The position numbers were made by a program, and so were the translations under genes. From the IMG/VR virus record IMGVR_UViG_3300047392_000058, positions 1 to 27,013 of that record: a stretch of DNA of 27,013 nt; one strand, written 5' to 3'. Of this stretch, positions 4,994-27,008 are shown one piece after another. The first letter of the stretch is position 1. Each line of letters opens with the position of its first letter. This stretch comes from a virus. The notes under the pieces were generated by a model. It was not told the DNA's origin. It worked only from the letters and a program-made list of their open reading frames with translations, and searched no databases.

Positions 4994-5979
4994 TGGGAGC
5001 AGCATTAGCAAGCATGGGCGGTAACGTCCTCGGTGCATATATTCAAGGAGAAGCCGCTAAGGACGCAGCTAATACAGCAGCTAGAGCACAGCTTCAATCG
5101 GCACAGATGGCTGCTGAAGCTCAGAAGTTCCGTCCTGTAGGCATTACGTCTAACTTCGGTACGTCTAACTTCCAGTTTAGTCCTGAAGGTTATCTCACAG
5201 GTGCTGGATACACTCTAGACCCTCGCTTACAAGCTGTTCAAGGTGGTTTGTTAGGCGGTCTACCTCAGACTCAGCAGGATGTAGCTAACATTCAGAACAT
5301 GGGTAGACAGTACATGGCTCAGTCTCCTCAAGAGGCTGCACAGCAATACATGGCTAATCAACAAGCTCTGTTGGCTCCTTCTCGTGAACAACAGTCAGCT
5401 CAGTTACTGAACCAACTAAGCAATACAGGTCGTACAGGCTTGTCCATCGCTCAAGGCGGTAACTTAGGTATGTCTAACCCTGAGTATCAAGCTCTAGCTA
5501 ACGCTCGTGCCTTACAAGACCTCCAGTTAGCCGCTAGTGCTCAACAAGCAGGTCAGCAACAATACACATTCGGTCAAGGCTTGCTCTCAAGTGCTTACTC
5601 TCCGTTGCAGTCTCAGTTAGGCACTGCTGCTACTTTGGAACAACTTGGTCAGTCTCCTCTGGACATCGGTGCTCAACTTGGCGGTCGTACTGCTACTGCT
5701 GGCGCTAACGTGGGTAATACGTTGCTCCAAGGTGGATTAGCAGCAGCTAGGACAGCTCAGGCAGGTAATGCTTACTCTCCATTCGGTACTGCGATCAGTG
5801 GAGCAGCTTCTAACCAAGCCTTCGGTAGCGGTATAGGTAACTATATTAACGCTTACGGGAATAGTTTAGACGCTAATAAACAATACGGAGCTGAGAACGT
5901 CTACGGTTATGGTGGAGGAGGAATGCAGCCTTCTGAGTCTGTATGGGGTAGTATGTTTAACGTGGACGGAGGCGTATAA
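4993..5979 (+). CDS. Probable internal virion (ejection) protein
   Basis: A 328-residue protein rich in Ala, Gln and Gly. It opens with a glycine/alanine segment (MGAALASMGGNVLGAYIQGE) and continues as a long helical, Q-rich region (QQYMANQQALLAPSREQQSA), then a glycine-rich end. This composition is usual for podovirus proteins ejected with the DNA, for example T7 gp14 and P22 gp7. It lies in a block of three such genes between the tail genes and the lysis genes, which supports the call. AGGAG lies 6 bases before the start and TAATG joins it to the upstream gene. There is no sequence signature that would prove it. Confidence 0.65.
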   Translation: MGAALASMGGNVLGAYIQGEAAKDAANTAARAQLQSAQMAAEAQKFRPVGITSNFGTSNFQFSPEGYLTGAGYTLDPRLQAVQGGLLGGLPQTQQDVANIQNMGRQYMAQSPQEAAQQYMANQQALLAPSREQQSAQLLNQLSNTGRTGLSIAQGGNLGMSNPEYQALANARALQDLQLAASAQQAGQQQYTFGQGLLSSAYSPLQSQLGTAATLEQLGQSPLDIGAQLGGRTATAGANVGNTLLQGGLAAARTAQAGNAYSPFGTAISGAASNQAFGSGIGNYINAYGNSLDANKQYGAENVYGYGGGGMQPSESVWGSMFNVDGGV

Positions 5980-18675: not shown

Positions 18676-19360
18676 TCTCTACTTTCATTATAGCTCTTCC
18701 AATGAGTTCAGGGATAAGTGGAACGACTGCGTTTCCTAGCTGTTTAAGTCTGTCCACCCTTTTGGGAACCCCATCATCCACTCGATAAAGACAGGATGAG
18801 CTTTTCCACCAATCCTTGCTGACAACGATGGAGTGTTCCTCGTAAATTCTGCGGGATAGGCTCCCTCCTTTGCTAGATGACACGTTGGGGTAGGCAATAA
18901 TCCAGACTCGATCCCTTTGATGCGGAGCGCCAATGGAAGCAGCTGAGATACAATGCCATTGTGCATCATACCCGATCTCATTGAGTGACCTGAGAACTGT
19001 TTCCAATCCTCTAGAGCGAAGCACTGAGACATTTTCGATGAGCGCATACTTTGGCTTTGTTTCGTTAATGATTCTACAGAATTCAAACCACAACCCTGAG
19101 CGTTCTCCTGCAAGGCCTTTACCTGTTCCTGCTGTGGACAAGTCTTGACAAGGGAATCCTCCGCAAACAACATCGACTGTTCCAACATCATCTCCTTTAA
19201 GAGTTTTTACATCGTCAAAAATAGGCACTGAAGGCCAATGCTTTTTTAGAACCAAACAAGCTTTCTTGTCTACTTCGCAAAAGGCTTTTGTCTGCATTCC
19301 TGCTCGTTCTAAGCCTAGGCTGAAACCGCCTACACCGCTAAAAAGATCTAAGACTTGCAT
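18665..19360 (-). CDS. DNA cytosine-C5 methyltransferase, compact
   Basis: A 231-residue enzyme that transfers methyl from S-adenosylmethionine to cytosine C5. Motif I is LDLFSGVGGFSLGLERAG (residues 4-21), motif IV GGFPCQDLS with catalytic Cys71, motif VI ENV (110), motif VIII QRDRVW (148-153), and motif X GNAVVP (210-214). Only about 35 residues (160-195) separate motifs VIII and X-proximal RVDDGVP, so the target-recognition part is very small. No partner restriction enzyme is visible, so it is probably a solitary anti-restriction or regulatory methylase. Start at 19360 is joined by TGATG to the polymerase stop. A long second frame is nested inside it. Confidence 0.92.
   Translation of the reverse strand: MQVLDLFSGVGGFSLGLERAGMQTKAFCEVDKKACLVLKKHWPSVPIFDDVKTLKGDDVGTVDVVCGGFPCQDLSTAGTGKGLAGERSGLWFEFCRIINETKPKYALIENVSVLRSRGLETVLRSLNEIGYDAQWHCISAASIGAPHQRDRVWIIAYPNVSSSKGGSLSRRIYEEHSIVVSKDWWKSSSCLYRVDDGVPKRVDRLKQLGNAVVPLIPELIGRAIMKVENDR
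18736..19191 (-). CDS. Possible overlapping gene inside the methyltransferase
   Basis: A 151-codon frame, shifted +1 within the methyltransferase gene on the same strand. AAAGGAG lies immediately before ATG ATG TTG (19191, 19188, 19185). The product has EDWKQFSGHSMRSGMMHNG, ESGLLPTPT and FIEWMMGFPKGWTDL, patterns I recall from short proteins often annotated beside C5 methyltransferases. The resemblance may be forced: GYDAQW in the main frame shares its bases with SGMMHNG, and DGVPKRVDRL shares its bases with MGFPKGWTDL. It could therefore be a true dual-coding gene or an echo of the conserved main frame. Confidence 0.4.
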   Translation of the reverse strand: MMLEQSMLFAEDSLVKTCPQQEQVKALQENAQGCGLNSVESLTKQSQSMRSSKMSQCFALEDWKQFSGHSMRSGMMHNGIVSQLLPLALRIKGIESGLLPTPTCHLAKEGAYPAEFTRNTPSLSARIGGKAHPVFIEWMMGFPKGWTDLNS

Positions 19361-21096
19361 CAATGGGTTTCCCTCCAGTTACGTCCCACCTTGTATTCCC
19401 CATCTAGAGGACAACGTAGATTATACGCTATCCCCGCTTCCTTGATTGATTGTACAGCAGCTTTGCCAACTACGTCAGCTACGTCTGGTGAACACTCTAT
19501 CTGCCACTCATCGTGAACATTTGCCACAAATTTAGCATCAATCTTGTTGCGTCTAAACTTCTCATCTAAGATCACGAGAGCCTTCTTCATAACGATTGCA
19601 CCTGCGCCCTGTAACAAACTGTTGAGTGCCGCGTGTTCACTACGAACCCAAATCTTACGACCATCAAGCCCGGGTACATAGCCCTTGCTCGCGTATATGG
19701 CGACTTTATCACGTAGACGCTTGAGCGCGGGAGTCCCTTTAAGAAAGGCATCGATAAGCTTTTGTCCATCCTTAGCACTACCACCGACAATCGAGCCAAC
19801 CTTGGAAGGCCCCGCGCCATACATCCAGCTATAGATAAACGTCTTTGCTTGATCGCGTGTCTGCAACCCCGCTGCTTTCTGGTTGATCGTATGGATGTCC
19901 GTTCCATCTTTAGACGATCCCTCACAGACTGTTTTAACATATGCTTCGTCCTTCATATAATGAGCAAGCATTCGCAGTTCCAAACCACTAGCATCTGCTC
20001 CAACTAACACATTTCCCTCTTCCACTGTCCAACATTGTCTACACTCTGGCCCGTAGGGAGATCCTGAATTTGGAATTTGCGCCATATTTGGTTTCATATG
20101 AGTAGCCCTTCCAGTCACTGCACCATTAGTAATCACACGTCCGTGTACCCTTCCGTCAGCTCCTACGACCTCTAACCAAGATTCAATCTGAGCGATACGC
20201 TTCCCTAGCATCATGTACTCAGCTATCAACTGAGCGATAGGATACTTCAGCGACATCAACACAGCTTCATCGACAATAGCCTGACCTTGCGGGTAGTTAG
20301 CTGTAGGCTCAGTGAACTTCTTAGGTTTCCACCCGAGTCCCATAAGTTTTTCACAGATTTGCTGTCTAGAGGCAGGGTTAAAAGTGATAGTCTCAGGTTT
20401 CAAAAGCTTACCTGTTTTGGAACTTATACGTTCCACTTCGTATGGAGGATATAACTCCTGCATTTTGTCATTGATGGCACTCATCTTTCCCTTGAGTTCA
20501 GCTAGTAAGCACGTAGCGTGAATGGTGTCTAGTTTGAATCCGTTCTTCTCTTGCTTGTTTATGATAGCTGCTACTTGGTGTTCCAAAACAACGCTATCAG
20601 ATGAAAACCCTTTACTATCACAATCAGAGAAAAGACGGTGGCAAAGGTCAACCAAAACACGTACATCTCTCCGGCAATAGAATTCAAGAAGCGTGTCCAA
20701 AGGCGAGTCAAAACATTCTCCTTCATAGTCTTCCCTTCTGTTCATCATCCATTGCCACGTTGCCTTGTAGTCCAGCTTCTTGACTCCGAGGGTTTGTCCC
20801 CATGCGTCTAGGCTGTGTCCTCCGTCCCTCGTTGGCTCTAGTAGCCTTGACACTACGAGTGTGTCGTATGCTTGCTTCAGTCCAATCTTGGTCTTCCAGA
20901 GCTTGTTTAAGATCGGAAAGTCGAAGGATATTCCGTTGTGAGCTGCGATCAACGTAGCGTCCTTTAAGTAATCCCAAAGTCCTGTTTGAGCTTTCCATAC
21001 CTTCACCTCTCCTGTGTCAATGTCCTGAGTTACGCACAAATGGATCGTATCGTGAGCCATGTTCGTCTCGATGTCCAGTGCAATTCTTTTGGTCAT
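19360..21096 (-). CDS. DNA polymerase, family A (T7 gp5-like)
   Basis: 578 residues. The N-terminal 3'-5' exonuclease has ALDIE (Asp8, Glu10), AAHNGISFDFPIL and YCRRD (Asp144). Polymerase motif A is GADASGLELRML (Asp368), motif B RDQAKTFIYSWMYG (Arg414, Lys418, Tyr422) and motif C VHDEW (Asp529). GAVTGRATH and GLDGRKIWVRSEHAALN are typical T7-type segments. It is 126 residues shorter than T7 gp5, and most of the difference is the missing thioredoxin-binding insertion in the thumb: only about 17 residues lie between LYPPY and ITFNPASRQQI. It copies the phage genome together with the primase-helicase and SSB. Confidence 0.96.
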   Translation of the reverse strand: MTKRIALDIETNMAHDTIHLCVTQDIDTGEVKVWKAQTGLWDYLKDATLIAAHNGISFDFPILNKLWKTKIGLKQAYDTLVVSRLLEPTRDGGHSLDAWGQTLGVKKLDYKATWQWMMNRREDYEGECFDSPLDTLLEFYCRRDVRVLVDLCHRLFSDCDSKGFSSDSVVLEHQVAAIINKQEKNGFKLDTIHATCLLAELKGKMSAINDKMQELYPPYEVERISSKTGKLLKPETITFNPASRQQICEKLMGLGWKPKKFTEPTANYPQGQAIVDEAVLMSLKYPIAQLIAEYMMLGKRIAQIESWLEVVGADGRVHGRVITNGAVTGRATHMKPNMAQIPNSGSPYGPECRQCWTVEEGNVLVGADASGLELRMLAHYMKDEAYVKTVCEGSSKDGTDIHTINQKAAGLQTRDQAKTFIYSWMYGAGPSKVGSIVGGSAKDGQKLIDAFLKGTPALKRLRDKVAIYASKGYVPGLDGRKIWVRSEHAALNSLLQGAGAIVMKKALVILDEKFRRNKIDAKFVANVHDEWQIECSPDVADVVGKAAVQSIKEAGIAYNLRCPLDGEYKVGRNWRETH

Positions 21097-21568: not shown

Positions 21569-21809
21569 CTTTAAACCTTTCAATCAATTTATTAGAAAAG
21601 TAACCACCAACAAAAGCCCCACCAGAAAAGTCCATAGCTTGAGCACTGTCTTCAGCACAGGCTTTTACACACTCTTTTATTTGTTCAGCTGCTATTAGTT
21701 TAGCAAACTTAACAATCTGATATACACCGAACAGATTAGGTGTTGATGTTGCGTCTAGTGGAGTATTGCTCACCTGCCTAGCCATCTCAATGATTTCATC
21801 TTGTGTCAC
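21558..21809 (-). CDS. Small phage protein (83 aa), GTG start
   Basis: Starts at GTG 21809 in a GTGA overlap with the primase-helicase stop, with GGAGG 5 bases before it. The opening TQDEIIEMARQVSN and the middle YQIVKFAKLIAAEQIKECVK are a pattern I recall from many short phage proteins of unknown function, often in several copies per genome. The C-terminus has a glycine-rich turn (FSGGAFVGGYFSNKLIERFK). Confidence 0.7.
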   Translation of the reverse strand: MTQDEIIEMARQVSNTPLDATSTPNLFGVYQIVKFAKLIAAEQIKECVKACAEDSAQAMDFSGGAFVGGYFSNKLIERFKDAQ

Positions 21810-23431
21810 AGTTCCTCCATTGTTACTTCAACCATACGTCCAGTGTTCATATCGTACATCAGGGAGCAAGCAGGCCCAGTGAGTCCATTGTAGCGATTCT
21901 TAGCCACTGCAACCTTAGTCGTATGCCTCACGTTAGGGTCAGTACTCATGGAGTTACGCTCTAAGGTGATCACAGCATCGGACAACTGAGCGATAGCACC
22001 TGAGCCTCGCAGCTGAGACAACGATACAGCCTCACCGTCCTCATGTCCTTTGTTCGATGTGCTAGGTCGCTTGAGGTGTGACACACAGATCAAGGTAATA
22101 CCAGTCTCTTGAACCAATGTACGCAGACGAGTCATCAAGACATCAATGCTCTTGCGCTCATCATTCCCATCCATACCAGAGACAACGAGAGAGATGTGAT
22201 CCAAGAAAACAACACGGCAATCACAAGCCTTGGACATGTATCGTATGCGGTTAAGCACGTTGTCAATAGCAAGGGAGCCGAAATGATCAAAGAGGAACAC
22301 ACGATTAGTACCCAGAGTAGCATCGAATGCCTCCTTCAATTCTCGTTCTGTGACTTGGGTATCGGGTAGGTGCAACTTTTTGTTTGCTTGCAGTGACATA
22401 ATTGATCTGGCAGTCTTTCGCACTGACTCCTCCAGAAACATACCGCCGATGTTCCACTTGGTTGTTCGGAGTATCTGATACAGGATTTCTCTAAGGAACT
22501 GACTCTTTCCAAGGCCTGATCCAGCTGTGACTGTAATGAGTTCAGATGCTCGTAGACCGTATAGAAGTTCGTTAAGGCCTTTGAACGGATAGAAGGCTTC
22601 AGCGACTGGCTCAGGTGCAGATACGCTGTCCCAAAGTGTTGCCGCTTGGATGATCCCATCTGGTACGTACGACTCACTGCGCCACCATTGGTTAACGTAT
22701 TCGCTTCCTCGTCCGTTAGATAAATAATCGCAGGCATCTTTAAATCCTTTCAAGTGTTTGAATATTTTAACCTTGTTCCCGAACAGTTCAGCTACGTCCT
22801 TAGCTGCCTTCTGTCCTACCTCATCAGCGTCAAAACAGATCACGATAGTCTCGAAGCTATCTAGGTACTCATACTGAGCCTTGCAGTCTTTAACAGCCGC
22901 TGAAGCCCCATTACGGATACTCACAGTAGGCCACTTGCTGCCTGTCATCTGATACGAAGCTAATGCGTCTAGTTCACCCTCAACGATGGTGATGTACTTA
23001 CCCTCTTTCTGAAACAAGGACTGTCCGAAAAGTGTCGCTTTCTGAAAGTTTCCAGCGATTGAGAATGTCTTGTTCTCTACAGATCGAACCTTTTCCGCTA
23101 CTTTAGCGCCTGTTTCATCGAAGTAAGGATAGTAGTGCTTCCCTGTCTCCTGTGTGACACCGAAGAACTCACATGTATCCTTTGAGATACACCTGTCCAC
23201 TATGGCCTTAACTTCCCCTTGTGTTTTCATTGTAAATACCTTAGTTTTTGGTTTCTCATGTATAGAAAAGTCGGAATTGTTTACATGTTCAGTTCCTGAT
23301 GTATACGCATGGCAGACATGGCAGTACAAATGTCCGTCATCGTAGACAGACGAGCCATCTGAGCTGCCACAATGCTCACAAGAGGTATGACGCAGGAACT
23401 TAGAGGCTACTTTGAGGTTAGAAGTCATCAT
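21806..23431 (-). CDS. DNA primase-helicase (T7 gp4-like)
   Basis: 541 residues from ATG 23431 (MMTSNLK). A zinc-binding domain has Cys18, Cys21, Cys37 and Cys40 (CEHCGSS, then YCHVC), a near match in spacing to T7 gp4A. The TOPRIM primase core has VEGELDALA and CFDADEVGQKAA. The RecA-like helicase has Walker A GSGLGKSQ, Walker B FLDHISLVVSG and QLRGSGAIAQLSD. It unwinds DNA and lays primers for the polymerase. Unlike T7 gp4, the C-terminus (GRMVEVTMEEL) has no long acidic tail ending in Phe, the part that T7 uses to bind its polymerase. The start overlaps the upstream gene by 14 bases. Confidence 0.96.
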   Translation of the reverse strand: MMTSNLKVASKFLRHTSCEHCGSSDGSSVYDDGHLYCHVCHAYTSGTEHVNNSDFSIHEKPKTKVFTMKTQGEVKAIVDRCISKDTCEFFGVTQETGKHYYPYFDETGAKVAEKVRSVENKTFSIAGNFQKATLFGQSLFQKEGKYITIVEGELDALASYQMTGSKWPTVSIRNGASAAVKDCKAQYEYLDSFETIVICFDADEVGQKAAKDVAELFGNKVKIFKHLKGFKDACDYLSNGRGSEYVNQWWRSESYVPDGIIQAATLWDSVSAPEPVAEAFYPFKGLNELLYGLRASELITVTAGSGLGKSQFLREILYQILRTTKWNIGGMFLEESVRKTARSIMSLQANKKLHLPDTQVTERELKEAFDATLGTNRVFLFDHFGSLAIDNVLNRIRYMSKACDCRVVFLDHISLVVSGMDGNDERKSIDVLMTRLRTLVQETGITLICVSHLKRPSTSNKGHEDGEAVSLSQLRGSGAIAQLSDAVITLERNSMSTDPNVRHTTKVAVAKNRYNGLTGPACSLMYDMNTGRMVEVTMEEL

Positions 23432-23702
23432 CACAGTCCCTCTCACGTGGTTCTACGCCTGTTCCGTGACACCTACGGCATGATGCCCCATCGTAGTTAC
23501 CTTCACCGCAACCACCGCACAATGAACAGTCTTCCTGCATACTGTCGTCAATGTCATCGGTGTAGTCTTCATTGTCAATGTCGTCTTCATCATCAATCAT
23601 AGGTGTTTCTTTCTTTCCAAAGATTCTGTCCCAGTTATCGTGAATCTTCTTAACGTCTTCCTTACGCCTTGCAGATCCTTTACCGCCGTCTAGTAATGCC
23701 AT
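23418..23702 (-). CDS. Small protein with DnaJ-like zinc finger
   Basis: 94 residues from ATG 23702, with AAGGAG 7 bases upstream. The N-terminus MALLDGGKGSARRKEDVKKI is basic, the middle is very acidic (MIDDEDDIDNEDYTDDIDD), and the third part, CSLCGGCGEGNYDGASCRRC plus HGTG, has the CxxC pairs of a DnaJ-type or rubredoxin-like zinc site. It ends in an acidic, Phe-terminated tail (RDCDDDF). Proteins with the same opening are common near T7-like replication genes, with no known function. It overlaps the primase gene. Confidence 0.75.
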   Translation of the reverse strand: MALLDGGKGSARRKEDVKKIHDNWDRIFGKKETPMIDDEDDIDNEDYTDDIDDSMQEDCSLCGGCGEGNYDGASCRRCHGTGVEPRERDCDDDF

Positions 23703-25950: not shown

Positions 25951-26151
25951 TTAGATTGTGAGTGCTTTGATGAAATTAGGTGCTTCGCCATTGTATGACG
26001 TGATGCGGAAGCTATGGAAGCCGTGCTCTGTGGCTACCTTTAAGACTTTTTGTATGTCTTGCTCTGTCTTACAGTTAGTAGACAATAAATCTTCTTGGTA
26101 GCGCTCTGTACTATCTTTAGCAAGGCCGTAGATGAGAATCTCTTTAGTCAT
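25951..26151 (-). CDS. Small conserved phage protein (66 aa), first leftward gene
   Basis: Starts at ATG 26151 (MTKEILIYGLAKDSTERYQE) with CGGAG 8 bases upstream; the longer frame to 26313 has no SD and lacks protein-like sequence. The remainder (LSTNCKTEQDIQKVLKVATE, then GFHSFRITSYNGEAPNF) is a small alpha/beta protein seen in several phages. As the gene nearest the divergent control region it should be expressed first in the leftward arm. Function unknown. Confidence 0.74.
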   Translation of the reverse strand: MTKEILIYGLAKDSTERYQEDLLSTNCKTEQDIQKVLKVATEHGFHSFRITSYNGEAPNFIKALTI

Positions 26152-26313
26152 TGTGTGTGCTCCGATACTTGGTGAACATGGCGACTGTGCCATGATAGTT
26201 ATATTGCAAGCCCCATGCCAGCCTTGATTTATTAGTACTTGATAGTTACAAATGTGTTGGCATTGTAGACTTCTGGTGTACAGATCATGTAAACTGTGAC
26301 GTATAGTATTCAT

Positions 26314-26443
26314 TTATGATGCACCATAATGATACAATTTAGACACCCATGCACTATTATGATGCACTTTCATGCACCAAGTTGGTTAGACTGTGGATAA
26401 CTACGTACTTATGCACAATTTAGTAACAGCCATGTGTGGATAA
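26314..26443. other. Candidate replication origin with DnaA boxes
   Basis: TGTGGATAA, the exact complement of the consensus DnaA box TTATCCACA, occurs at 26392-26400 and 26435-26443, 43 bases apart and in the same direction. ATGCAC occurs five times (26319, 26349, 26362, 26372, 26411). Within these, TTATGATGCAC repeats at 26314 and 26357, also 43 bases apart. ACAATTTAG repeats at 26334 and 26415. The cluster lies in AT-rich, gene-free DNA at the divergence point of the two arms, where an origin is expected. Confidence 0.55.
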
Positions 26444-26520
26444 CTCTTGAGGTAGGTGTTTATACTTAGAACTATTGTGTCTAGGATGTACGATATAGGT
26501 GCTACATAGCTACACACATT

Positions 26521-26551
26521 TCACCATATGAGATATATCACCATATGAAAT
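26521..26551. repeat. Tandem TCACCATATGA repeat
   Basis: TCACCATATGAGAT (26521-26534) and TCACCATATGAAAT (26538-26551) differ in one base and are 17 bases apart. Each holds the palindrome CATATG. Their position between the DnaA boxes and the rightward promoter suggests protein-binding sites. Confidence 0.55.
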
Positions 26552-26773
26552 CTATGGAGTTACTGACCAATGAGTCATTAGTGTTACTTGATAGGGGGGG
26601 ATACCCTGTGCTATGGTGTTACTTTTGTGGGAGCCTCCTAAGTACACAAAAAAGAGTAATTTAGAAAGTAGACAAACATGACTAAAAAGTCTAATAAAAT
26701 CAAAGAAGTTATGGAATTAATTAGGGACAGGTTAGGACTATGGAGATAATCTGTGCACAGGAGGGCTGTCATA

Positions 26774-27008
26774 GACACTTGAGGTCATGAAAGTGGACAC
26801 AAGAGGTCTATGATGTAACATAGGTGACAGAGACTATAAATAAATTAAAATAAAGCTTGACATTTGAGAAAACAGGTATATAATTCTCTATGAAGGTAAT
26901 CCTTCCAAGAACTCAAATGAAGACTTTGTAGACAGGCTACTTAGTTAATACAGGAAGTTTCTAAGTGAGTTACTCTGATGTCTAGCTTCCTAAGTTGGAC
27001 ACAAGAGG
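26774..27008 (+). repeat. GACAC-N2-GAGG repeats around the promoter
   Basis: GACACTTGAGGTC at 26774-26786 and GACACAAGAGGTC at 26796-26808 are 22 bases apart, about two helical turns. A third copy, GACACAAGAGG, lies at 26998-27008, downstream of the promoter. All have the same direction. They may bind a regulator on both sides of the promoter. Confidence 0.5.
26857..26884 (+). promoter_or_regulatory. Sigma70-type promoter facing right
   Basis: TTGACA (26857-26862), a 16-base spacer and TATAAT (26879-26884) match both consensus hexamers exactly. Transcription would begin near 26891 and run out of the window to the right, away from the leftward arm. An A/T-rich stretch upstream (TATAAATAAATTAAAATAAA) resembles an UP element. 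The promoter implies that genes served by the host RNA polymerase lie to the right. Confidence 0.85.

Follow-up and report, generated by a model that had tools for sequence, protein, structure and literature searches.

A probable host-run control site, combining a predicted sigma-54/NtrC promoter with a DnaA-box cluster, ahead of the replication genes of an uncultured T7-type phage

Gene arms and non-coding features of the viral contig

The DNA analyzed here (the window, 27,013 nucleotides) comprises positions 1 to 27,013 of the IMG/VR virus contig IMGVR_UViG_3300047392_000058 and is a partial genome. Structural and lysis genes run rightward, beginning at the left end of the window, and a leftward arm from about 26.15 kb holds the replication genes, namely those for primase/helicase, family-A DNA polymerase, DNA methyltransferase, exonuclease, endonucleases, and ribonucleotide reductase. 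A first-pass annotation, made from the sequence alone, had described T7-like enzymes, and this was borne out in that the relatives of this virus have a T7-type primase and polymerase. The non-coding stretch past the replication arm holds DnaA boxes and ATGCAC hexamers. The features of the locus are as follows.

19360-21096, minus strand: family-A DNA polymerase (phrog_17, E 2e-146), in the same arm as the primase/helicase
21806-23446, minus strand: T7-type primase/helicase (phrog_239, E 6e-185), in the arm served by the putative sigma-54 promoter
25951-26151, minus strand: gene for 66 aa with no assigned function, probably the first of the replication arm
26206-26220, minus strand: predicted sigma-54 (RpoN) -24/-12 promoter TGGCATGGGGCTTGC, the only perfect TGGCAYNNNNNTTGC in the window
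26320-26336, no strand: promoter-proximal NtrC-type dyad TGCACCATAATGATACA, two mismatches to TGCACY-N5-RGTGCA, 116 bases upstream of the promoter start
26350-26366, no strand: distal NtrC-type dyad TGCACTATTATGATGCA, one mismatch, 146 bases upstream of the promoter start
26373-26389, no strand: TGCACCAAGTTGGTTAG, possibly a weak third NtrC site, with an intact inner part and a degenerate outer half, as read from the sequence
26392-26400, minus strand: exact DnaA box TTATCCACA, -180 from the promoter start
26409-26417, plus strand: third DnaA consensus box TTATGCACA, -197, including the fifth ATGCAC (26411)
26435-26443, minus strand: exact DnaA box TTATCCACA, -223 from the promoter start
26594-26660, minus strand: T-tract/C-tract element (...ACTCTTTTTTGTGTACTTAGGAGGCTCCC...CCCCCCC, roughly CTATTTTRCTCTTTTTTGTRTCTGRGRGGGTACY then CCCCTCCCCC), deeply conserved
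26857-26884, plus strand: sigma-70 promoter TTGACA-16-TATAAT (12/12), a consensus match only, pointing away from the replication arm

On the minus strand, a GGAG-type putative ribosome site at about 26160-26163 is followed by an ATG at 26149-26151, and the first gene of the replication arm probably starts at 26151. A longer open reading frame reaching 26313 is judged a probable artefact because stop codons interrupt its additional 5' portion in three relatives (L003, L029, and L051). Elsewhere in this part of the window, an exact 13-base direct repeat (TGGACACAAGAGG) occurs at 26794-26806 and 26996-27008, spaced 202 bases, and paired TTTCACCATATGAGAT/ATATCACCATATGAAAT repeats lie at 26518-26551, where two relatives (L018 and L044) have TTTCACATGGTG...CACATGGTGAAA. 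The rightward sigma-70 match raises the possibility that the two gene arms rely on different host sigma factors. A nucleotide search with the window gave no match among isolated phages, searching bacterial genomes with the primase turned up no prophage or host, and an Rfam search returned no credible match. Motifs were scored against published consensuses.

A cluster of DnaA boxes

Scored against the published consensus TTWTNCACA (PMC5835720), the DnaA cluster consists of two TTATCCACA and one TTATGCACA within 52 bases and includes an R1/R4-type box. Apart from those at 26392-26400 and 26435-26443, the window has no exact boxes (0.24 are expected per window), and none of 2000 dinucleotide-preserving shuffles placed two exact boxes on one strand within 60 bases of each other, which confirms the pair 43 bases apart that was noticed at first pass. 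An 11-base repeat with the same spacing (TGTGGATAACT, 26392-26402 and 26435-26445), previously listed beside the boxes, is indeed present but is not an independent feature, because it is identical to the two exact boxes plus two flanking bases. Host DnaA is likely to bind at 26392-26443, as judged from these motifs.

A predicted sigma-54 promoter with NtrC-type enhancer dyads

The -24 GG and -12 GC elements of a sigma-54 promoter are found with exact spacing (TGGCAY-N5-TTGC) at 26206-26220, in line with the published consensus TGGCACnnTTnTTGC (PMC8743547), and the predicted transcription start lies at about 26195, leftward into the replication arm. Five ATGCAC hexamers stand upstream, beside the DnaA boxes, at 26319, 26349, 26362, 26372, and 26411 (irregular spacing of 30, 13, 10, and 39 bases). 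Only their clustering is unusual, because the count of ATGCAC in the entire window is at chance frequency (14 seen vs 14.8 expected); five within 95 bases were absent from all 2000 dinucleotide-preserving shuffles, which upholds the hexamer cluster as originally reported. Read as palindromes, four of the five give half-sites of the 17-base NtrC site, whose consensus is TGCACCAnnnTGGTGCA (PMC8743547). The resulting distal and proximal dyads are 30 bases apart, and at -146 and -116 they fall within the range of an upstream enhancer (about 80-200 bases away). Under the same rules, the E. coli glnA positive control yielded the promoter TGGCACAGATTTCGC and two 1-mismatch dyads at -122 and -90 (32 apart), so that the palindromes have one and two mismatches here vs one and one in the control. 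Several relatives have perfect half-sites, the proximal-dyad offset is occupied in relatives by 1-mismatch versions, and the TTGGTGCA half of the weak third site is also kept in relatives. Together, these matches make it very likely that the site is a sigma-54 promoter with an NtrC-type enhancer.

The first-pass annotation had read the hexamers as iterons and suggested a plasmid-like mechanism as one way to start replication. Neither idea was supported: the hexamers are irregular and non-tandem (Tandem Repeats Finder reports no tandem repeats at this region), four of them are NtrC-type half-sites and the fifth lies inside a DnaA box, and nothing like a plasmid iteron array, or a Rep gene among the proteins searched, was found. 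Leaving aside the one inside the DnaA box, NtrC-type enhancer dyads account for the hexamers better than iterons do, and we therefore do not place the region with the iteron-type plasmid origins.

Conservation in close relatives

Scanning IMG/VR with the primase yielded 80 relatives, and most of those with enough upstream DNA have a sigma-54 promoter ahead of the replication arm. For motif counts, relatives were selected by the presence of a sigma-54-like site, and 400 bases upstream were scanned in the resulting 36; TGGCA and GC are invariant in their alignment, the sites having been selected by that core. An NtrC dyad was present in 27 of the 36 (vs 0.22 expected from the rest of each locus) and an exact DnaA box in 25 (vs 0.09 expected likewise). 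Since the remaining 11/36 have no exact box, the boxes are not essential to the whole group, and with about a third of close relatives lacking them, the origin part of our interpretation is less certain than the promoter part.

The NtrC dyads of relatives fall at a small set of recurring offsets (-146/-116, -145/-124, about -113, or -202/-150), and the -146/-116 offsets of the window recur in 11 relatives. In all 12 loci with this enhancer geometry, DnaA boxes are kept at -180 and -222/-223 with no drift, so that the boxes passed the check for conservation proposed at first pass; the distal box of one locus (L033) is the variant TTATACACA. Sequence outside the motifs is just 62-84% identical among these loci, and spacing that stays constant while sequence drifts suggests one phased complex.

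Seven relatives (L054, L055, L058, L060, L065, L075, and L077) carry TGTC-N8-GACA dyads (TGT-N10-ACA, a NifA-like form) at about -70 to -145 in place of the NtrC dyads and keep the sigma-54 promoter; the motif has one further occurrence elsewhere across the seven loci. This exchange suggests a different activator in these relatives, so that NtrC would not be the sole activator used, and an exchangeable activator site with a constant promoter fits an enhancer and not an iteron. Other arrangements were also seen. Five relatives (L007 at 5560-5960, L010, L022, L030, and L040) have GTGTTGTATAAAAACAACAC-like repeats, possibly another regulator's site, around a single DnaA box and an NtrC dyad, and in two (L008 at 900-1260 and L019 at 200-480) inverted DnaA boxes lie between enhancer and promoter, the module being rearranged yet kept.

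Conservation beyond the clade and origin-like features

Three unbiased scans of IMG/VR covered DnaA pairs spaced 42-43, NtrC-dyad plus sigma-54 cassettes, and the T/C-tract element, which was defined independently of the DnaA, sigma-54, and NtrC motifs. Among the matches listed, 119 loci had such DnaA pairs, with a perfect sigma-54 site within 400 bases in 17 (vs 0.7 expected) and an NtrC dyad in 14 (vs 1.2 expected). The cassette scan gave 40 stretches, and an exact DnaA box lay within 300 bases in 7/39 (vs 0.23 expected). At the T/C-tract loci (101 among the matches listed), exact DnaA boxes were found in 36 (vs 1.2 expected), exact sigma-54 sites in 29 (vs 0.3), and NtrC dyads in 23 (vs 1.7); many contigs are of shared ancestry, and these enrichment counts are thus not fully independent. 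The primase was downstream and co-oriented in 36/36 T/C-tract loci showing it (among the matches listed). Bacterial genomes, serving as negative control, gave 25 chance-like matches to the T/C-tract pattern, with no sigma-54 site, no window homologue, and one DnaA box.

When primases were clustered at 65% identity, eight of the resulting clusters contained DnaA boxes and several contained sigma-54 sites and NtrC dyads, and the clusters carrying the motifs include primases far below 60% identity to that of the window. DnaA boxes are interleaved with NtrC half-sites in two contigs (L086 and L180), and a DnaA cluster lies directly ahead of the sigma-54 promoter in five (L104, L110, L165, L188, and L194). 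Another five contigs (L212, L205, L229, L231, and L236) have NtrC sites and at least one sigma-54 promoter with no detectable homology to the window proteins tested, and may be additional groups exploiting the same host system.

The T/C-tract element is kept across uncultured phages with primases just 45-60% identical (among the matches listed) and is a candidate unwinding or initiation element, for which a packaging or transcription role was also considered. When 50-mers of the window are ranked by stability, two of the lowest five are nearby (26674 and 26835), as is the conserved T-tract (26641-26654), and none of these directly adjoins the DnaA boxes as in oriC. The GC-skew profile proposed as a check does show a cumulative minimum near the boxes, at the junction of the divergent arms, but it follows gene orientation and was discounted, since a minimum that coincides with a gene-strand switch is not independent evidence. 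We consider the case for a DnaA-dependent origin at this site to be evenly balanced.

A probable composite control site and alternative explanations

No DnaA gene was found in 24 related virus records, several of them fragmentary, and no sigma-54 activator (enhancer-binding protein) in 13 related phages, in both cases with working controls. T7-type RNA polymerase (PF00940) was likewise absent from the 24 records and was found in the Rhizobium phage Pasto control; a T7-type transcription-primed origin was set aside on this ground, the window and several records being partial. With no phage RNA polymerase, DnaA, or activator detected, transcription and probably the first replication step would use host proteins. 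Of the two routes to initiation offered by the first-pass annotation, host DnaA or a plasmid-like mechanism, the former is thus plausible, because relatives with T7-type primase and polymerase have no T7-type RNA polymerase and the boxes are conserved; the latter, like the iterons, was not supported.

The locus is probably a composite, host-run control site in which a sigma-54/NtrC-controlled replication operon is joined to a probable DnaA-dependent origin. From the motifs, their geometry, and their conservation, all read in the sequence, we infer protein binding, nitrogen dependence, and origin activity. Host sigma-54 RNA polymerase would wait at the -24/-12 promoter (26206-26220, minus strand), and host NtrC, the nitrogen-stress activator, would bind the dyads 116 and 146 bases upstream and loop over. 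Firing by NtrC would lead to transcription of the replication operon (primase/helicase, polymerase, nucleases, and ribonucleotide reductase); in sister phages, an activator other than NtrC would fire the sigma-54 promoter. Host DnaA would bind the box cluster at -180 to -223, a fixed distance from the promoter, where it would most probably open the origin for loading of the phage's own T7-type primase/helicase, and it may also tune the sigma-54 promoter.

The locus might instead be purely a promoter, with NtrC and sigma-54 driving the operon, DnaA acting just as a transcription regulator (repressor or co-activator), and replication starting elsewhere. The exact phase of the boxes with the promoter is compatible with this, DnaA has an established role in regulating transcription (e.g., mioC repression; PMC5835720), and sigma-54 sites are steadier in the clade than DnaA boxes (loose matches in 23/24 vs 16/24). 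We nevertheless regard it as rather unlikely, as numerous related phages carry groups of 4-10 DnaA boxes in an origin-like manner (L091, L095, L134, and L148) and other primase clusters have DnaA boxes where no sigma-54 site was detected. A phage genome present in many copies, each with high-affinity boxes, would also titrate DnaA, and a decoy that halts host replication, with no role in a phage origin, has precedents in datA and mioC (PMC5835720); with just three boxes here, and a fixed promoter distance that titration would not need, such a decoy is improbable.

Two further alternatives concern the short repeats. Their cluster adjoins DnaA boxes in a non-coding stretch, as would be expected of a DnaA origin whose iterons serve an initiator that the phage encodes, on the model of plasmids or phage P1 oriR. 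However, the repeats form palindromes at irregular intervals and keep phase with the sigma-54 promoter, another dyad replaces them in relatives that retain the promoter, and no Rep-type gene was recognized in the proteins searched (no family match to a Rep initiator in PHROGs/Pfam scans, for a partial genome with several small genes unassigned); we therefore consider iterons very improbable. The architecture could also be the one we propose with the TGCAC-N7-GTGCA dyads bound by another host enhancer-binding protein of NtrC-like specificity, given that many bacteria have several such proteins and that sister phages carry a different dyad (TGTC-N8-GACA). Full matches to the NtrC consensus TGCACCAnnnTGGTGCA on other virus contigs (e.g., TGCACCAATATGGTGCA in L205) speak for NtrC itself, and we give this substitution little credence.

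Comparison with known systems and significance

The predicted promoter resembles E. coli glnAp2, in which a pair of NtrC dyads separated by about three helical turns lies upstream of a -24/-12 promoter (offsets -122/-90 vs -146/-116 from the promoter start in the window), and differs from it in driving a phage replication operon and in being combined with a DnaA-box cluster. With bacterial oriC, the site shares clustered DnaA boxes near a T-rich element and a strand switch with a skew minimum, whereas its boxes are few, its unwinding element is a candidate only, and the phage supplies its own helicase. In phage P1 oriR and related plasmid origins, DnaA boxes stand beside repeated short motifs; unlike these, the window has no regular iterons or recognized Rep gene and has T7-type replication enzymes.

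T7 replication starts from promoters of its own RNA polymerase. Like T7 and the RNA-polymerase-less T7 supergroup (SIO1 and Pelagibacter phage HTVC115P), the window encodes a T7-type primase/helicase and a family-A polymerase, with 44-48% primase identity; T7 has its own RNA polymerase, and none was detected in the related records searched. SIO1 and HTVC115P showed no exact DnaA boxes, sigma-54 sites, or NtrC dyads in the parts read, and the DnaA/NtrC/sigma-54 module was not found on inspection of SIO1, HTVC115P, Pasto, and a Manatee Spring genome. To our knowledge, how T7-supergroup phages without RNA polymerase begin transcription and replication is unsettled.

In marine T4-like cyanophages, NtcA promoters have been reported to exploit the host nitrogen-stress regulator (PMC3037559). 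The window is alike in the use of such a regulator by a phage promoter and different in its components, NtcA being a CRP-family factor in cyanobacteria, whereas the window has sigma-54 with an NtrC-type enhancer, another motif, and the coupling to DnaA. Phage exploitation of a host nitrogen regulator is thus already known, while the sigma-54/NtrC promoter and its DnaA coupling are apparently new, in that our searches of the open-licence literature turned up neither a phage replication promoter of the sigma-54/NtrC kind nor one coupled to DnaA boxes.

For a large uncultured group, this reading offers a concrete answer, in which a host sigma-54/NtrC nitrogen-stress switch would start transcription and host DnaA would start replication. 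More tentatively, uncultured T7-type phages that have no RNA polymerase of their own may, as a broad group, combine swappable host inputs (sigma-54 with NtrC or other activators, and DnaA) in one phased complex at a single conserved start site, gating lytic development by host nitrogen status and replication competence. If true, phage production would be tied to nitrogen limitation, paralleling the NtcA promoters of cyanophages, and infection would be coupled to the nutritional and replication state of the host.
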